Source: Nocardiopsis halotolerans DSM 44410
GTDB taxonomy: Bacteria; Actinomycetota; Actinomycetes; Streptosporangiales; Streptosporangiaceae
Direction of reading: 5' to 3'
Length of the DNA stretch: 34,020 nucleotides
Assembly (NCBI RefSeq): GCF_000341065.1
Contig: NZ_ANAX01000174.1
Location: 2,257-36,276 of the forward strand
The translations under genes were made by a program, and so were the position numbers. Positions within the stretch are counted from its first letter, which is position 1. The number at the start of each line of letters is the position of its first letter. A model generated the notes under the pieces. That model worked only from the letters and a program-made list of their open reading frames with translations, was not told the origin of the DNA and ran no database searches. Positions 1-14,002 of this stretch are shown here, piece by piece.

Positions 1-210
1 GGCGAGCATGGCCAGGTGGGAGGCGTAGGTGAAGCTCGCGGGGGCGTGCCTGCGCTCCCACCGTCCGCCCGGCAGCAGGCGGGCGAGGTTGGGGGTGCGG
101 CCCGCCTCTGCCAGCTCGGCGGCCACGTCGTACCGGAGGGTGTCCAGGGTGAGCAGCAGGATGTCGTGCGTGCCCACCACGGCGTTCATGTCGGGTGCGG
201 TGCTGTTCAT
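1..210 (-). CDS. STM4013/SEN3800-type hydrolase, alkaline phosphatase superfamily (partial, N-terminus)
   Basis: Only the first 70 codons are inside the window; the gene continues past the left edge. The N-terminus has the sulfatase/alkaline phosphatase-superfamily layout: a beta strand ending in a metal-binding Asp (DILLLTLDTLRYD), a TPNLARL segment, and ASFTYASHLAM, where a Thr or Ser would be the nucleophile. The ATG (208-210) overlaps the stop of the upstream ATP-grasp gene as ATGA, so the two are translationally coupled. Order and sequence match the STM4013 family of the STM4011-4015 cluster, which is known only from conservation. The substrate is unknown. The assignment rests on recognition of the N-terminus and on synteny. 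Confidence 0.75.
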   Translation of the reverse strand, partial: MNSTAPDMNAVVGTHDILLLTLDTLRYDVAAELAEAGRTPNLARLLPGGRWERRHAPASFTYASHLAMLA

Positions 211-1316
211 ACTCTCTCGGGAAGGGGGAAACGGCCGGTGGCCAGGGCGTGCAGCTGTTCGGCGTAGGTGTCGCGGCCCTCGTGCAGCACCCCGGGGATC
301 AGGTCGCCGAAGGCGTTGACCTCGCACACGGTGAACTCGCGCCAGCCCGGGGAGGCCAGCAGGTCCACCCCGGCGTACAGGGTGCGGGGGAAGCACGCGG
401 CGGCGGCCTCGGCGGTGGCCATCGCCTCCGCCCAGGCGCGCGGCCCGACCGACGCCCGCAGCGCCTCCAGATCGCCCCGCGCGTTGCCCAGGTGCAGGTT
501 GGTCAGGGGTGAGGCGGACGAGCGCACCACGACGTGGGAGGCCCGGCCCGCGACCACCACCACGCGCAGGTCCACGGTCCTGCCGCCGAACCCCGCCTTG
601 GGCACCCACCGCTCCACGTGCAGGCCGTCCGGGGCGAGCGCGTCCACCACCGCCGCGACCCGCTCCTCCCGGGTGTAGGTGCGCAGCCGCAGGCTGTTGT
701 ACAGCTCCACGGAGCCGTCGGCGCCCCTGACCAGGTCGGCCGAGGTCACCGCGCGGACCTGGCCTCTGGGGGAGGTCGCCAGCGCCACCACGCCGGATGC
801 GGAGGAGCCGTGCGCGGGCTTGACGAACACCCGCCGCCAGCGGTGCGCGTCCATCAGGGCGCGCAGCGTCGCGTAGTCGGTGACCGGCCCGGGCAGGGCG
901 GGCGCCACGGGCACCCCGGCCGCGTCCAGACGCGCGTGGCAGCGCCGCTTGTCGCACATGTCCACCAGATCGGCGGGTTCCTGGAGCAGGTGCGCGCCCG
1001 GGGTGGCCGCCACCGCCTCCGCGAGCCGGGCCAGCGCGGCCCGGAACCCGGCGTGCTGGTCGGCGGTGCCCTCGGCCCGGTACAGGTCGGGGGCGTGCTC
1101 CCATCCCCGCAGCAGGCGCTCGGTCTCCACGTCGCCGCCGGGGGAGTCCACCCGGACGAGGGCGTCCTCGGGGAGCCCCACCGGACCGGTGGCCAGGTCG
1201 CGCCACGGCACGATTTCCGGTTCGGGCAGGCCGGAGGACTCGGCCGCCGCGCGGAACAGGTCCAGGCGCCGGTTGCCGGGTACCCCCACCACGACCAGGG
1301 GACGTCCGCCGATCAC
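207..1316 (-). CDS. STM4014-type ATP-grasp protein
   Basis: A 369-residue protein starting at GTG 1316, which overlaps the upstream stop as GTGA. The C-terminal two thirds reads as an ATP-grasp fold: a lid/P-loop-like segment FVKPAHGSSASGV (Lys166), ERWVPKAGFGGRTVDLRV (about 235-252, with Asp249 and Arg251), GVDLL (Asp318) and the metal-binding CEVNAFGD (Glu332, Asn334). The N-terminal 100 residues resemble a pre-ATP-grasp domain (VVVGVPGNRRLDLF). ATP-grasp enzymes activate carboxylates with ATP to join them to an amine, thiol or hydroxyl. The substrate here is unknown. Overlaps on both sides indicate a stoichiometric operon with the hydrolase and the LRR protein. Family knowledge: STM4014 proteins accompany two radical SAM proteins. 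Confidence 0.82.
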   Translation of the reverse strand: MIGGRPLVVVGVPGNRRLDLFRAAAESSGLPEPEIVPWRDLATGPVGLPEDALVRVDSPGGDVETERLLRGWEHAPDLYRAEGTADQHAGFRAALARLAEAVAATPGAHLLQEPADLVDMCDKRRCHARLDAAGVPVAPALPGPVTDYATLRALMDAHRWRRVFVKPAHGSSASGVVALATSPRGQVRAVTSADLVRGADGSVELYNSLRLRTYTREERVAAVVDALAPDGLHVERWVPKAGFGGRTVDLRVVVVAGRASHVVVRSSASPLTNLHLGNARGDLEALRASVGPRAWAEAMATAEAAAACFPRTLYAGVDLLASPGWREFTVCEVNAFGDLIPGVLHEGRDTYAEQLHALATGRFPLPERV

Positions 1317-2326
1317 TCCGCGACCGCCGTGTAGTAGTAGACCTCCCGGTCCTCGTCGTCCTCGTCCCCGTCGATCTCCGGTTCCCGGACGTCGGAGAGG
1401 TCCACCTCCACCCCGGGCAGGGCGGCGCGGACGCGTTCGCACATGTCCTCGGACAGGTAGTGGTGGTGCAGGTCGAGTCGCTTCAGTCCCCGGAAGGCGG
1501 GGGCGAGGTCGATCAGAGCCCGTGCGCCCTCGTCGGAGAGGTCCCCCAGGGACAGGTCGAGGACCTCCAGAGAGGACAGGACGGGCGCCTCGGCCAGGAC
1601 CGGGAACCAGGACCGGAGGTTCTCGGTGTTGCGCAGTCCCAGCGTGCGCAGCTTGGGGAACGCCTCGCCGGACAGCACCGGTCCGAGGTCCTCCGGGGCG
1701 GTGTCGCCGCCGTAGTCCTCCACCCCCAGCCACAGTTCCAGGTGTTCCAGGCTGGGCAGCCGCGCCCCGACGACCTGCCGGGCGAGCTTCCGGGGCAGCC
1801 CGCCGCCCTGGAGGGTGAGTCCGCGCAGCCCGTCGTGTTCCAGCGCCTCCATGCTCAGGTGGCTGGTGCCGCGCACCGCGAACCCGGTCAGCCCGGGGAA
1901 GGCGGCCACCAGCGGGGACAGGTTCCCGTGCCGGATCCACGACGCCTCGCACTCCTCGACGACGAGGTCCGCGTAGAAGAGGGAGCGCAGGCCCGGGAGG
2001 CGGGGTGCGAGTTCCACCAGGAGGTCGCGGACCTCGTCGGAGGACTCCACCTCGAAGGCCTCCACCAGGCTGCCGATGACCACCGCGGTGACCGCGGCCG
2101 GGTCGGACACGGACTCGACGAAACCGGTGAGGTAGCGCCGTGCGGACCGGGGGTCCCCCATCTCGTCGTAGTAGTGGGACAGACCCCAGGCCACCGCGCC
2201 GGGATCGGCGAGGGTACCCGGATCCAGGTCGGGCTCCCCGGACCACTCGCGCACCTCCTCACCGGGGAGGTTCAGGTAGTTCACGACGGGCAGCCCGGCG
2301 AACTCGGTCAGGTGGTTGGTGAACAT
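1313..2326 (-). CDS. STM4015-type leucine-rich-repeat protein
   Basis: A 337-residue protein with ATG 2324-2326 preceded by CGGGAG. The N-terminus MFTNHLTEFAGLPV is the family hallmark as I recognise it. Residues about 140-310 contain irregular leucine-rich repeats (LRGLTLQ, LEHLELWLG, LRTLGLRN, LEVLDLSLGDLSDEG, LKRLDLHHHYLSE). The C-terminus is unusual: an acidic stretch GDEDDED followed by a tyrosine triplet and a short tail ending AVAE. There is no catalytic motif, signal peptide or membrane segment, so a scaffold, sensor or substrate role is possible. It overlaps the upstream merR gene by 19 bases and the downstream ATP-grasp gene by 4. Confidence 0.8.
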   Translation of the reverse strand: MFTNHLTEFAGLPVVNYLNLPGEEVREWSGEPDLDPGTLADPGAVAWGLSHYYDEMGDPRSARRYLTGFVESVSDPAAVTAVVIGSLVEAFEVESSDEVRDLLVELAPRLPGLRSLFYADLVVEECEASWIRHGNLSPLVAAFPGLTGFAVRGTSHLSMEALEHDGLRGLTLQGGGLPRKLARQVVGARLPSLEHLELWLGVEDYGGDTAPEDLGPVLSGEAFPKLRTLGLRNTENLRSWFPVLAEAPVLSSLEVLDLSLGDLSDEGARALIDLAPAFRGLKRLDLHHHYLSEDMCERVRAALPGVEVDLSDVREPEIDGDEDDEDREVYYYTAVAE

Positions 2327-2778
2327 GGTCGCTCCCGGGAGGACGGAGGGTACGTGCGTCCAGGCCTACCAACGCACTCCGACGTTCCGGACTCCTCCAG
2401 CACCGCCCGCATCCTCGGGCACTCCAGGATGTCATCGGCGTCGCACGCCATGGCGTGCGACACCAGTTCGCGTGCGGCCCGCAGCTTCTCCAGACGCTCG
2501 TCGAGCCTGGCCAGGTGCTCGGCCAGACGCGCGCGCCGCTCGGCGCCGTCCGGCGCACCGGTCATCTCCCGGATCTGCGCCAGGCTGAACCCCGCCTCCT
2601 GCGCGCGCAGCACCAGCGCCACCCGGAGGCGGTGCTCGTGCGTGTACCGGCGCTGGCCCCCGGAGCGGCGGGCGGGTTCCAGGACACCGGCCGACTCCCA
2701 GTGCCGCAGCACGTGTGTGGCCAACCCGAACGGCTCGGCCAGTTCACCGATGGACAGTTCCGCGTCGCTTGACTTCAT
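2308..2778 (-). CDS. MerR-family transcriptional regulator
   Basis: The 156-residue reading from ATG 2776-2778 starts MKSSDAELSIGELAE and has a clear MerR winged helix-turn-helix (SIGELAEPFGLATHVLRHWE, then RRYTHEHRLRVALVLRA to about residue 72), followed by a coiled dimerisation helix at 80-108. His108, Cys112 and Cys120 lie close together (SHAMACDADDILECP) and could bind a metal or sense thiol/redox state; this is inference. The tail after about residue 130 looks like run-through sequence. The gene overlaps the start of the STM4015-type gene by 19 bases, so it heads that operon. An upstream TTG would add 12 residues but would cross the promoter region. Confidence 0.85.
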   Translation of the reverse strand: MKSSDAELSIGELAEPFGLATHVLRHWESAGVLEPARRSGGQRRYTHEHRLRVALVLRAQEAGFSLAQIREMTGAPDGAERRARLAEHLARLDERLEKLRAARELVSHAMACDADDILECPRMRAVLEESGTSECVGRPGRTYPPSSRERPCSPTT

Positions 2779-2825
2779 GTGGACATGAACTTCCAGACTG
2801 GGGTTCCCTGTCAAGGACCTAGGGT
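2769..2825. promoter_or_regulatory. Divergent merR/methyltransferase promoter region with dyads
   Basis: The 60 bases between the divergent starts hold a near-perfect dyad TTCATGTGGACATGAA (2774-2789), which covers the merR start codon, and a second small dyad CCAG-T-CTGG (2793-2801). On the minus strand TTGACA (2814-2809) is followed after 19 bases by TTCATG, the long spacing typical of MerR-controlled promoters; this would make the merR transcript leaderless or nearly so. On the plus strand TTGACT (2769-2774) and TAGGGT (2820-2825) are promoter-like hexamers but are too far apart to be one promoter. The elements are visible; their control by the MerR protein is inferred. Confidence 0.4.
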
Positions 2826-2838
2826 GAGGGGCATCACC

Positions 2839-3429
2839 ATGGACGAGCGGACGGAACGGGTGCGCGGGGACTGGGACCGCATGTCACGGGGGTACGACCA
2901 GGGTGAACGGTTGCAGCGCCTCGTGCTCGGCGCCACCCGCGCCCGGCTGTGCGGGAGGGCCCGCGGGCGGGTCCTGGAGGTCGCCGTGGGCACCGGGCAC
3001 AACCTGCCGTACTACCCGGACGGGGTGGAGGTCACCGGGGTGGACCTGAGCCCCGGCATGCTGGCGCGGGCCAGGGCACGGGCCGCCGGACTGGGCGGGA
3101 GGGTCGACCTCCGGGAGGGCGACGCCCAGGACCTGGCCTTCGGCGACGGGGAGTTCGACACCGTCGTGTGCGCGCTCGCCCTGTGCACGATCCCCGACCA
3201 GTACCGGGCCCTGTCCGAGATGCGCCGGGTACTCCGGCCGGGCGGACTCCTGCTGCTCGTGGACCACGTCGAGTACACCCGCTGGCCCTTCCGGCTGTGG
3301 GAGGCGCGCAAGGAGCGCCCCCGGAGGCTGCCGAGGAGCGTCGCCGTCGAGGCGGGTTTCACGGTCGACCACCACGACCGGACCGCTCTGGGGTTCGTCG
3401 AGCGCGTGGTCGCCCGCCGCGGAGCCTGA
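2839..3429 (+). CDS. Class I SAM-dependent methyltransferase (METTL7/UbiE-like)
   Basis: A 196-residue protein; ATG 2839 follows GTGAGGGG at good spacing. Motif I is VLEVAVGTGHN (45-55), then GVDLSPGMLARAR, the motif II region FDTVVCALALCTI and motif III RRVLRPGGLLLLVDHVE. The LCTI and VDHVE features resemble the METTL7-like small-molecule thiol or phospholipid methyltransferases more than the protein or RNA classes, but the substrate cannot be read from sequence. It is transcribed divergently from the MerR gene across 60 bases, which suggests it is a MerR target and possibly a detoxification enzyme (inference). Confidence 0.85.
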   Translation: MDERTERVRGDWDRMSRGYDQGERLQRLVLGATRARLCGRARGRVLEVAVGTGHNLPYYPDGVEVTGVDLSPGMLARARARAAGLGGRVDLREGDAQDLAFGDGEFDTVVCALALCTIPDQYRALSEMRRVLRPGGLLLLVDHVEYTRWPFRLWEARKERPRRLPRSVAVEAGFTVDHHDRTALGFVERVVARRGA

Positions 3430-3555: not shown

Positions 3556-4347
3556 ATGGCTACACACAGCGAACTCCGAGAATTCTGGGAACACCGCCTC
3601 GAGGAGGACTGGACCGAGAGCGGCGTCGGCTACCGGGCCCTGGGCCGCCCCTTCAACACGTGGATGTACCGGGTGCGTGAGGAGGTCTTCCTGCGCGAGG
3701 TCTCCCGGATGGAGCCGGGCCGGGCCAGCGTCCTCGACGTGGGCAGCGGCACGGGCTTCTACGTGGGCCTGTGGGAGCGGATGGACGTCGGTGACATCAC
3801 CGGGTGCGACATGACCGGCGCGGCCGTGCGGCGCCTGCGCGGCAGGTTCCCCGACCACCGGTTCGTCCGCCAGGACGCCGCCGACCTCGACGCCTTCGAG
3901 GACGACTCCTTCGACGCGGTGTCCTGCATGGACGTGCTCTTCCACATCACCGACGACGAGCGCTACACCCGGGCGTTCGGCGAGTTCGCCCGGGTCGTGC
4001 GCCCCGGCGGCCTCCTCGTGATCTCCGAGAACTGCCTTCAGCGCCCCGAACAGCGCGGGGAGCACCAGGTCAACCGCACCCTGGAGTGGATCGCCGGCAC
4101 CGCCGACAAGGCCGGGTTCGACCTGGTCCGCCGCGTCCCCATGCTCATGCTGATGAACGCCCAGGTGGACGCCCCCGCGCCGTGGCGCAAGGCGTGGGGC
4201 GGGGCCCTGCGCGCGGCCACCCTCACCGCGCCGACCGGGTGGCTCGCGGGCGCGGCCCTCTATCCGCTGGAGCGGCGCCTGGTCCGGGGCCGCACGGAGA
4301 GCACGACCACGGAGCTCGTGGCGTTCCGCCTCCGGGAACAGGGGTAG
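3556..4347 (+). CDS. Class I SAM-dependent methyltransferase
   Basis: A 263-residue protein from ATG 3556. Motif I is VLDVGSGTGFYVG, with GCDMTGAAVRRLR downstream, then SFDAVSCMDVLFHITDD and VVRPGGLLVISEN. The N-terminus (FWEHRLEEDWTESGVGY, about 8-25) and the C-terminal basic, hydrophobic stretch WLAGAALYPLERRLV suggest a lipid or membrane-associated acceptor, but this is weak. It shares little beyond the fold with the upstream methyltransferase and lies 126 bases after it, so the pair need not be functionally linked. No clear Shine-Dalgarno precedes the ATG. Confidence 0.82.
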   Translation: MATHSELREFWEHRLEEDWTESGVGYRALGRPFNTWMYRVREEVFLREVSRMEPGRASVLDVGSGTGFYVGLWERMDVGDITGCDMTGAAVRRLRGRFPDHRFVRQDAADLDAFEDDSFDAVSCMDVLFHITDDERYTRAFGEFARVVRPGGLLVISENCLQRPEQRGEHQVNRTLEWIAGTADKAGFDLVRRVPMLMLMNAQVDAPAPWRKAWGGALRAATLTAPTGWLAGAALYPLERRLVRGRTESTTTELVAFRLREQG

Positions 4348-12285: not shown

Positions 12286-12903
12286 TCAGGGGCGTTCGCC
12301 CGGCCACACCCCCGCGTCGAACACCCGCACACCACCGCCCGGGGTCACCACGGCGTCCACGGGACGGTCGTGCGGCTCGGCGGGCAGCGAGTCCACGAGC
12401 TCGTCGTCGTGGACCAGGGCGATGGCCGGGGAGTGCGGGCCCCTGCGTGCGAGGGCGCGGTCGTAGCACCCGGCGCCGCGTCCCAGGCGCGTTCCGCTCC
12501 GGTCCACGGCCAGCGCCGGGCAGATCACCGCGTCCGCCCGGGCCAGCGCCTCAGGGCCGTACCGGTGCCCGACGGGTTCCAGCAGCCCGTGCCCGGCCGG
12601 AGCCAGGGTGTCCGGTCCGTCGAAGGCCGCCCAGTCCAGGTCACCGCCGGGCAGGAACACGGGCAGCAGCACGTAGGCGCCGCGCTTCCACAGCGCCGTC
12701 ACCAGCTTGCGGGTGTCGGGCTCGCCGCCGACGGAGTAGTAGCAGGCGACCGTCCCGCCCATGGCCAGCCACGGGACGTCCATGAGCGCGTCGCGGACCG
12801 CGGAACCCGCGCGGGCGCGCTCCTCGGGGCCCCGGGCGCGCCGCCGCTCCAGGATCCCCCTCCGCAGCCGGACCTTGGCCTCACGCGGTTCGCTCTCGCT
12901 CAT
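12286..12903 (-). CDS. 5-formyltetrahydrofolate cyclo-ligase
   Basis: A 205-residue protein from ATG 12901-12903. It has the family pattern: basic N-terminal helix (AKVRLRRGILERRRA), VACYYSVGGEPDT, VLLPVFLPGGDLDWAAF, the nucleotide-binding stretch RLGRGAGCYDRALAR and a closing VDAVVTPGGGVRVF. It converts 5-formyl-THF to 5,10-methenyl-THF using ATP. It is divergent from galU, a conserved actinobacterial arrangement, and upstream of fmdB on the same strand with a 193-base gap. Confidence 0.93.
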   Translation of the reverse strand: MSESEPREAKVRLRRGILERRRARGPEERARAGSAVRDALMDVPWLAMGGTVACYYSVGGEPDTRKLVTALWKRGAYVLLPVFLPGGDLDWAAFDGPDTLAPAGHGLLEPVGHRYGPEALARADAVICPALAVDRSGTRLGRGAGCYDRALARRGPHSPAIALVHDDELVDSLPAEPHDRPVDAVVTPGGGVRVFDAGVWPGERP

Positions 12904-13057
12904 GGCCCCAGTGTGGCACCGCCGCCGTGCCGCCGGACCGGGCGCCTACCGCGCGCGGTGAACACGCGATGGCGGCCTCCCCTCACCCGCGCGAAACCGC
13001 CGGGACTTCTTGACGCCTCGCTGTGTGTGGAGACGCCGAGACGGCGGGTCGCTGTCC

Positions 13058-13063
13058 TAAAGT
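13058..13063 (+). promoter_or_regulatory. -10 element for a leaderless galU transcript
   Basis: TAAAGT ends 6 bases before the galU ATG, the spacing expected if transcription starts at the start codon. No Shine-Dalgarno is present. A matching -35 is not evident. Confidence 0.4.
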
Positions 13064-13069
13064 GCGGAC

Positions 13070-14002
13070 ATGAACGACTCCATCGACCAGAAGAGACCTT
13101 CCGGCTCCGCAGCCGTCACGAAGGCGGTCGTGCCCGCGGCGGGCCTCGGCACGCGGTTCCTGCCCGCGACCAAGGCCACGCCCAAGGAGATGCTGCCGAT
13201 CGTGGACAAGCCCGCGATCCAGTACGTCGTGGAGGAGGCGGTGGCCGCCGACCTCCAGGACGTACTGATGATCACCGGCCGCAGCAAGCGCTCCATCGAG
13301 GACCACTTCGATCGGGCCTACGAACTGGAGGAGGCCCTGGAGGCCAAGGGCGATGACGCACGACTGCGGTCGGTGCGCGAGTCCAGCGACCTCGCCCAGG
13401 TGCACTACGTCCGCCAGGGCGAGCCGCGCGGCCTGGGGCACGCGGTGCTGTGCGCGGAGGCACACGTGGGCGACAACCCGTTCGCCGTGCTGCTGGGCGA
13501 CGACCTCATCGAGTCCGCCGACCTGCTGCGCCGCATGATCGAGGTGCGGGAGAGGCACGGGGGCAGCGTCGTCGCCCTCATGGAGGTGGAACCCGAGCAG
13601 GTGTCCCTGTACGGGTGCGCGGGCATCGAGCCCACCGACGAGGACGACGTCGTCACCGTCACCGACCTGGTGGAGAAGCCCGCGCCCGAGCAGGCGCCGA
13701 GCCGCTGGGCGATCATCGGCCGCTACGTCTGCGACCCGGAGGTCTTCCCGGTCCTGCACGAGACCCCGCCCGGCCGCGGCGGGGAGATCCAGCTGACCGA
13801 CGCCCTGCGCGAGCTGGCCAAACGCGACCCCGAGGACGGCGGCACGGTGCACGGCGTCCTCTTCCGCGGCAGCCGCTACGACACCGGCAACAAGGCCGAC
13901 TACATCAGGACGGTCGTGGACTTCGCCTGCCGCCGCCCCGACCTCGCCGAGGAGTTGCTGCCCTGGCTGCGCGGCTTCGTCGACCGGGCCCAGCGGTCCT
14001 GA
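13070..14002 (+). CDS. galU: UTP-glucose-1-phosphate uridylyltransferase
   Basis: A 310-residue protein from ATG 13070. The nucleotidyltransferase signature is AVVPAAGLGTRFLPATKATPKE (about 19-40), with VDKPAIQYVVEEAV, GLGHAVLCAE, FAVLLGDDLI (metal-binding Asp), VEKP and GGEIQLTDAL following. It makes UDP-glucose for cell-wall and glycan synthesis. In actinobacteria galU heads the conserved neighbourhood with glp and sepX/glpR, as here. Its transcript is probably leaderless. Confidence 0.96.
   Translation: MNDSIDQKRPSGSAAVTKAVVPAAGLGTRFLPATKATPKEMLPIVDKPAIQYVVEEAVAADLQDVLMITGRSKRSIEDHFDRAYELEEALEAKGDDARLRSVRESSDLAQVHYVRQGEPRGLGHAVLCAEAHVGDNPFAVLLGDDLIESADLLRRMIEVRERHGGSVVALMEVEPEQVSLYGCAGIEPTDEDDVVTVTDLVEKPAPEQAPSRWAIIGRYVCDPEVFPVLHETPPGRGGEIQLTDALRELAKRDPEDGGTVHGVLFRGSRYDTGNKADYIRTVVDFACRRPDLAEELLPWLRGFVDRAQRS

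Follow-up and report, generated by a model that had tools for sequence, protein, structure and literature searches.

A nearly invariant C-terminal glutamate suggests that the leucine-rich-repeat protein STM4015 may be modified by its neighbouring ATP-grasp and radical SAM enzymes

The ligase LysX attaches aminoadipate, through its amine, to the gamma-carboxyl group of the C-terminal glutamate in the EDWGE motif of LysW (PMC10433800). The LysW/LysX and ArgW/ArgX pairs resemble the gene cassette considered here in having the ATP-grasp ligase of closest fold and a carrier with an acidic stretch and a glutamate at its C-terminus. The cassette lies partly in a stretch of 34,020 nucleotides of Nocardiopsis halotolerans DSM 44410 (positions 2257–36276 of contig NZ_ANAX01000174.1; "the window" below means this whole stretch) and codes for the leucine-rich-repeat (LRR) protein STM4015, the ATP-grasp ligase STM4014, the hydrolase STM4013 and the radical S-adenosylmethionine (SAM) enzymes STM4012 and STM4011. 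The carrier-type C-terminal glutamate is found in 196 of 197 STM4015 proteins, and STM4014 has the fold of LysX, ArgX and RimK. There are also clear differences: LysW has zinc-binding cysteines, the EDWGE end and Glu54 as its last residue, whereas the STM4015 of the window is a 337-residue LRR protein with the tail YYYTAVAE, and the partners in the cassette are radical SAM enzymes, which to our knowledge LysW pathways do not use. RimK, which modifies ribosomal protein S6, shares the ATP-grasp fold with STM4014 (Z about 22), but we know of no radical SAM or hydrolase partners of RimK and of no relationship between S6 and STM4015. The SPASM radical SAM peptide maturases, among them SkfB and PqqE, resemble STM4011 in the CX3CX2C motif, the C-terminal cysteines and the sub-threshold matches to the Radical_SAM and SPASM models. 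These maturases act on small precursor peptides, whereas the recurrent substrate candidate here is a folded LRR protein, short unannotated peptides not having been searched for systematically. PqqE joins a Glu-x3-Tyr pair in the biosynthesis of pyrroloquinoline quinone, which the Tyr/Phe-x4-Glu spacing at the end of STM4015 recalls.

We consider it somewhat better than an even prospect that STM4015 is the substrate or carrier of this cassette, with its C-terminal glutamate as the acceptor for STM4014 and with the radical SAM enzymes and the hydrolase tailoring the product. The genes of the cassette within the window, and the parts of STM4015 that matter for this reading, are as follows.

1–210, minus strand: N-terminal part of an alkaline-phosphatase-superfamily hydrolase of the STM4013/SEN3800 family, which runs past the window edge (NF038075, 100.9 bits over 63 of 261 positions)
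207–1316, minus strand: STM4014-family ATP-grasp ligase (NF038074, 453.2 bits, cut-off 175)
1313–2326, minus strand: STM4015-family LRR protein, proposed substrate or carrier (NF038076, 344.1 bits, cut-off 275)
1340–1396, minus strand: stretch coding for residues 311–329 of STM4015, the acidic linker of variable length
1316–1339, minus strand: stretch coding for the conserved STM4015 tail YYYTAVAE, which ends with Glu337

The original prediction, made from the window alone, described four minus-strand genes (MerR, STM4015, STM4014, STM4013) overlapping by 19, 4 and 4 bases, an arrangement that was reproduced. Its assignments of the LRR, ATP-grasp and hydrolase proteins agree with the NCBIfam profiles, STM4013 also exceeding its cut-off when read beyond the window into the contig (NF038075, 376.5 bits, cut-off 250; the reading contains one unknown base). 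It further expected two radical SAM genes to the left of position 1, and the 2,256 bases of contig on that side carry both: STM4012 is complete (NF006067, 630.1 bits, cut-off 380) and STM4011 is represented by its first 79 residues up to the contig end (NF038073, 112.9 bits, against a cut-off of 200 that applies to the whole protein). The unknown base (L006:2256) lies directly left of the window inside STM4013, whose reading is some nine residues shorter than its relatives, so the window start seems to coincide with an assembly gap.

A scan of a genome collection with two peptide patterns yielded 533 stretches encoding relatives, from which the best 80 loci (L101–L180, all actinobacterial by title) were retained. 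The order 4015(n)-4014-4013-4012-4011 is preserved in 76 of these 80; contig ends truncate two of the remaining four (L106 and L117), and in the DNA examined L130 shows neither 4012 nor 4011 and L152 none of 4013 to 4011. Such agreement among the best relatives indicates that the five-family arrangement does not arise by chance and bears out the previously stated co-occurrence of the three families with STM4011 and STM4012. The window locus is an ordinary member of this catalogued cassette, to which no function has been assigned. One of the 80 loci, L105, is filed as Glycomyces fuscus, and its STM4014 is 88% identical to the window protein, like that of the closest Nocardiopsis; the record name may be wrong.

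The occurrence of STM4015 follows that of STM4014 closely. In a family sample of 200 relatives, STM4015 exceeded its cut-off in 97 genomes and STM4014 in 96, both being present in 96, none with STM4014 alone and one (G064) with STM4015 alone. In a phylum sample of 396 genomes the two were above their cut-offs in the same six. Among 234 Streptomyces genomes, STM4015 was found in 108 (E up to 1e-20) and STM4014 in 105 (E up to 1e-30), and comparison of the lists gave G635, G676 and G700 as carrying STM4015 alone. In a plasmid collection, tblastn matched 12 records with STM4014 and 14 with STM4015, the hosts being Streptomyces, Embleya, Nonomuraea, Deinococcus, Methylobacterium, Paenibacillus and Salmonella, with STM4015 only in Calothrix and Bacteroides; closer reading of the Bacteroides record revealed a 4014 gene after all, together with short remnants of 4013 and 4012. 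The copy numbers of the two families differ: STM4015 copies sum to 230 across the 97 genomes, with 1 to 7 per genome and often in tandem, whereas STM4014 gives a single match in 92 of 96 genomes, and in three of the other four one gene was matched in two pieces. One enzyme set serving several LRR proteins fits a division into enzymes and substrates. In G809 and G760 (L238 and L239), no 4014 match falls within the cassette but the genome has a 4014 gene at another place, which would fit a ligase acting in trans.

The C-terminal tail was tallied in 197 distinct STM4015 proteins (201 frames), mostly from Actinomycetota, five other phyla contributing one each; nine of 210 matches were left out, as they scored under 200 bits or lay at a locus edge. 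The final glutamate stands flush with the stop codon in all but one of these proteins. The sole exception (L147) is an interrupted gene, and its 3' stretch still codes for a tail ending in glutamate. Position −6, five residues before the final glutamate, is tyrosine or phenylalanine in 195 of the 197 (phenylalanine in 30), and position −3 is valine, alanine, leucine or isoleucine in 192; the set has no invariant serine, threonine or lysine within the tail. The tail is preceded by a linker of 1–32 residues with 41% aspartate plus glutamate, compared to 16% in the body; the ends of relatives read, for example, DDDWRYVAVAE. The entropy of the last residue is 0.05 bits for STM4015, compared to 3.0–3.1 bits for 4011, 4013 and 4014 of the same loci; 4012 is intermediate at 1.62 bits, ending mostly in arginine or lysine. 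Distant proteins with 29–42% identity to the window protein also end in glutamate: Salmonella (...YMNAMYTE), Paenibacillus (...WRYPSLTE), Methylobacterium (...YRSIAVSE), Bacteroides (...WYYPMITE) and Calothrix (...RYCSVAE). The near invariance of this tail suggests, as far as conservation can tell, that the neighbouring enzymes of the cassette chemically modify the C-terminal end of STM4015. We also considered the tail as a tag carried by other proteins. The strict DNA pattern W-R-Y-V-A-V-x-E-stop gave 26 matches in 21 of 100 relatives, all of them STM4015 frames, and none in the reversed control, looser forms not having been searched.

Copies of STM4015 beside and away from the cassette were compared, with "beside" defined as an enzyme scoring over 100 bits within 12 kb, except that at L162, L232 and L233 copies more than 2.5 kb away were counted as uncoupled. 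The final glutamate is present in 195 of 196 distinct copies beside the cassette compared to 13 of 17 away from it (p = 1.4e-4 by Fisher's exact test, ignoring relatedness); without the exception for the three loci, the counts are 197 of 198 coupled and 11 of 15 uncoupled copies. None of the 196 cassette-linked copies extends beyond the final glutamate. Ten matches were left out of this comparison by the same rules (mostly the same open reading frames as in the tail tally), and seven of these ten end in glutamate, including one, in G675, that does so only through truncation in the linker; there the cassette is fragmented and STM4015 ends before the tail. Both located copies from genomes that lack the cassette end without the glutamate (G064, ...FPAIID; G700, ...ICVEGLP), the copies of the cassette-less Streptomyces G635 and G676 being outside the tally. 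The other two uncoupled copies with other endings are orphans in G641 (...VGPLSY) and G686 (...VGPVSY), genomes that also carry STM4014. The uncoupled set includes the Calothrix copy, for which only plasmid DNA was available, and L237, a contig of only 5.2 kb. Contig C210 of the window's own genome carries two further STM4015 copies, and the 19.5 kb of it that were read contain no cassette enzyme; these orphan paralogues (L007:8766–9791 and 12471–13538) keep the tail as YYTAAAE and YYTAASE.

The structure model of STM4014 (mean predicted local distance difference test score, pLDDT, 92.3) has as its closest folds the ArgX-LysW complex 3vpb (Z 23.1; root-mean-square deviation (rmsd) 2.9 over 272 residues), LysX (Z 22.5) and RimK (Z 22.3), which are tied, with rmsd 2.8–2.9 over 265–272 residues. 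Foldseek likewise returned ArgX, LysX and RimK with E about 1e-11 to 1e-10, and PsnB, an ATP-grasp ligase of ribosomally synthesized and post-translationally modified peptide (RiPP) biosynthesis, also ranked high. The lysine, glutamate and asparagine ligands noticed at the outset correspond to K123/K166, E332 and N334; K123, K166 and N334 are invariant in the 61 rows compared and E332 is present in at least 90%. STM4011 has the radical SAM motif CX3CX2C plus SPASM-like C-terminal cysteines; its Salmonella homologue matches the Pfam Radical_SAM and SPASM models below their cut-offs, and SkfB is the only PDB sequence match of STM4011 at E up to 0.01. The nearest relatives of STM4012 are HemN and NocN, a radical SAM methyltransferase. 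STM4013 belongs to the alkaline-phosphatase superfamily, where its nearest relatives are nucleotide pyrophosphatase-phosphodiesterases, with Asp23, Thr61, Asp233 and His234 invariant in nine rows. The invariant threonine occupies the position of the nucleophile, at which sulfatases carry a cysteine or serine that undergoes conversion. Anaerobic sulfatase maturation, with STM4011 acting on STM4013, is not favoured because the threonine replaces this convertible residue.

Gene content and order, co-occurrence, tail conservation and the predicted fold of STM4014 are computed results. From them we infer the role of the glutamate as acceptor, the order of the steps and all of the chemistry in the following scheme. 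The cassette would use STM4015, a folded LRR protein, as its substrate or covalent carrier. STM4014 would activate a carboxylate of the C-terminal glutamate of STM4015 with ATP and couple an amine, such as an amino acid or similar compound, in the manner of LysX and ArgX with LysW and of RimK with S6. The tail or the group attached to it could then be altered by the SPASM-like STM4011 and the HemN-like STM4012, for instance through methylation or a bond between the aromatic residue and the glutamate, and STM4013, with its metal-dependent phosphodiesterase/sulfatase fold, might remove or transfer a phosphate-type group; several LRR paralogues would be served by one enzyme set. A tyrosine phenol at position −6 would not be needed, as phenylalanine stands there in 30 of the proteins. 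An external amine appears likelier than an internal ester or amide because the tail has no invariant serine, threonine or lysine; for the same reason a universal product of the microviridin type, with an internal ester or amide, is not favoured. A more specific version, in which the LRR proteins are genetically encoded C-terminal carriers whose glutamate is loaded by the ATP-grasp enzyme and on which the two radical SAM enzymes build a modified aromatic-glutamate group, is a possibility that we put forward tentatively, as rather more doubtful than probable.

The original prediction had proposed a peptide or protein modification or natural-product pathway with the LRR protein as scaffold or substrate. 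This interpretation is supported in part. Modification of an LRR substrate gains support from the glutamate tail, the RimK/LysX/ArgX-like ATP-grasp enzyme, the SPASM-like STM4011 and the fact that the tail, the interrupted gene apart, is changed only in uncoupled copies; a scaffold role would also be compatible with these data.

Several observations weigh against the proposed role of the tail and of STM4014. Most of the copies away from the cassette (13 of 17) retain the final glutamate, and the endings of G700, G641 and G686 are similar enough that these losses may represent a single event, leaving only two independent ones. At equal body identity, tails from one locus are not consistently more alike than tails from different loci. 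A fixed C-terminus is not unique to STM4015, since two proteins that often adjoin the cassette, DUF6745 and a small partner protein, share this trait (0.38 and 0.17 bits). The tail is predicted to be ordered, with block pLDDT values of 96, 93 and 89 over residues 311–337, and the alignment of the solved structure 2ra8 extends to residue 337, so the tail may be a structural C-cap. The fold of STM4014 alone does not fix its substrate, because other ATP-grasp enzymes follow closely (D-cycloserine synthetase and PurK-type enzymes at Z 21.4, Ddl at 20.5) and its top PDB sequence match is biotin carboxylase (E = 8.1e-5), ahead of RimK (9.1e-5) and LysX (1.2e-4).

The alternative that survives best takes the tail as a docking or recognition signal and STM4015 as an adaptor whose LRR face holds the real substrate, either a small molecule or a protein such as DUF6745; we regard it as rather unlikely. 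In its favour, near-invariant polar and aromatic residues lie on or beside the LRR strands (R/K152 and N/D233, each in 197 of 197, and W199 in 189 of 197), as do two histidines (H288 in 175 and H289 in 180 of 196), with LRR topology as the guide to which of them would face the solvent. A DUF6745 protein scoring at least 100 bits, with a small protein of about 100 residues, adjoins the cassette in 29 of the 80 loci. Its strong subfamily (over 300 bits) occurs in 74 of the 200 relatives, all 74 with STM4014, and DUF6745 has a fixed C-terminus of its own, Y-x-P-x-x-[EQ]-[TA], in 41 of 41 proteins. However, a docking signal would not require a free end, yet no cassette-linked STM4015 continues past its glutamate, and DUF6745 has no match at E 1e-10 in the 11 listed genomes of the window's genus and is thus not essential. 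A possible place for DUF6745 is as a second type of substrate. The DUF6745 proteins of Deinococcus (L096:11043–12044) and Methylobacterium (L093:4613–5635) show LRR-like repeats at the start, as judged by eye, and a Y-x-P-x-x-E-[TA] tail.

That the tail is only a structural cap at the C-terminal end of the LRR solenoid is improbable in our judgement. The structure model of the window's STM4015 (337 residues, mean pLDDT 91.6) agrees with 2ra8, the solved structure of a STM4015-family protein deposited as uncharacterised (Bacteroides fragilis Q64V53), with Z 31.0 and rmsd 2.8 over 287 aligned residues; by sequence the match has E = 8.9e-102 and covers nearly the whole profile. The high pLDDT of the tail, the extent of this alignment and the aromatic and aliphatic residues at −6 and −3 are what a cap would lead one to expect. 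It fits poorly with the linker of widely varying length before the tail, and with a tail that directly adjoins the stop codon in every cassette-linked copy bar the interrupted gene and is otherwise changed only in uncoupled copies. The Bacteroides STM4015 at L094:6611–7684 has an N-terminal WGR domain (PF05406, 65.1 bits) and is neighboured by the 4013 and 4012 remnants; judged by resemblance to this protein, 2ra8 may carry a WGR domain that is absent from the STM4015 of the window.

It is very improbable that the tandem LRR paralogues are diversified target-recognition proteins of an immunity- or effector-like kind armed by the enzymes, because LRR proteins of that kind usually vary at residues on or beside the strands, which here are conserved where polar, and PADLOC gave no match for six of the seven proteins scanned and one weak match, for STM4012 (MerR being outside the scan), which also gives no support to a defence system. 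The one to seven STM4015 copies per genome, often arranged in tandem, would fit diversified recognition proteins. Mean entropy in STM4015 is 1.32 bits for strands compared to 1.73 bits for helices, a comparison confounded by the buried leucines included in the strands.

Upstream of the LRR gene, the run begins with a regulator gene, beyond which lie a promoter box and a divergent gene.

2308–2778, minus strand: regulator of the MerR family that opens the run and contains a C-x8-C-P motif (PF13411, 68.1 bits)
2791–2814, minus strand: MerR promoter box TTGACAGGGAACCCCAGTCTGGAA (pattern TTGAC-N8-10-CAGT[CG]TG[GA]AA)
2839–3429, plus strand: class I SAM methyltransferase, divergent from MerR (PF08241, 88.7 bits)

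The helix-turn-helix domain of the regulator also matches PF09278 (45.4 bits), and the protein falls below the equivalog cut-offs of the specific types CueR, SoxR, MerR and ZntR, the best being CueR with 58.4 bits against 147.4. The presence of this gene in the operon had been taken as a hint that the cassette is inducible. MerR is indeed a real partner, though confined to certain lineages, an orthologue scoring over 100 bits being found beside the cassette in 15 of the 80 loci (15 of the 24 closest, L101–L124, and none of the 56 in L125–L180, with under 150 bases upstream available at L106 and L174), and regulation was right in kind. These loci belong to Nocardiopsis, Streptomonospora, Thermobifida, Actinorugispora and the record filed as Glycomyces fuscus, and MerR has the same direction as the cassette in 12 and is opposed in three. 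In all 15, however, the class I methyltransferase gene seen at 2839–3429 of the window adjoins MerR divergently at a distance of 58–107 bases, so that MerR is not simply the cassette's own regulator: MerR and the methyltransferase form a unit with two arms, either of which may be followed by the cassette.

All 19 MerR genes compared (17 distinct) have almost the same DNA ahead of the start codon, consisting of TTGAC, 8–10 bases and CAGT[CG]TG[GA]AA, with a TTMATGT-like element after the box close to the ATG. From its layout, the box could be a MerR-type promoter with a long spacer, and the methyltransferase probably shares this promoter region. A search with a pattern for this box gave one match in the genome of the window, one each in 9 of 21 genomes of the genus and none in the other 12, and no match in the reversed control. 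All nine matches in the genus lie at a MerR gene, followed in eight by STM4015 and in one (L209) by a piece of STM4011. At this last locus (L209:1480–2446), MerR and the box lead directly into the STM4011 piece (53 bits), apparently after deletion of the cassette. Just upstream of the orphan STM4015 at L007:8766–9791 there is a different MerR-like gene (L007:9930–10667, minus strand), and this orphan copy is thus also MerR-linked. Many Nocardiopsis loci also have, upstream of the cassette, a second class I methyltransferase gene (PF08241; window positions 3556–4347, plus strand).

The absence of an assigned function, as originally stated, agrees with the NCBI catalogue, which lists the families without one. 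In the portions of the literature available to us, the names STM4011–STM4015 were found in gene tables only, and among the papers listed there was no mention of the cassette, 2RA8 or Q64V53. Among open-licence PMC papers, none was found on DUF6745, SEN3800 or the "STM4015 family", none that joins leucine-rich repeats with radical SAM and ATP-grasp or with SPASM and radical SAM, and none that combines four of five enzyme terms or describes the cassette. The C-terminal mechanism is a new hypothesis. The cassette becomes a testable system through the glutamate tail, the link of this tail to STM4014 and the fold of that enzyme, and five families without annotated function, found in Salmonella, Streptomyces, Deinococcus, Paenibacillus and others, gain a falsifiable prediction centred on the last residue of STM4015. 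If the proposed role of STM4015 is correct, paired radical SAM and ATP-grasp enzymes would have in a folded LRR protein a type of substrate that, so far as the literature searched shows, has not been reported, and product discovery would become possible in genomes that each carry one to seven of these substrates. On the more doubtful, specific version with C-terminal carriers and a modified aromatic-glutamate group, the cassette would represent a protein-modification or natural-product class between the amino-group carriers and the RiPPs, present in hundreds of bacterial genomes.

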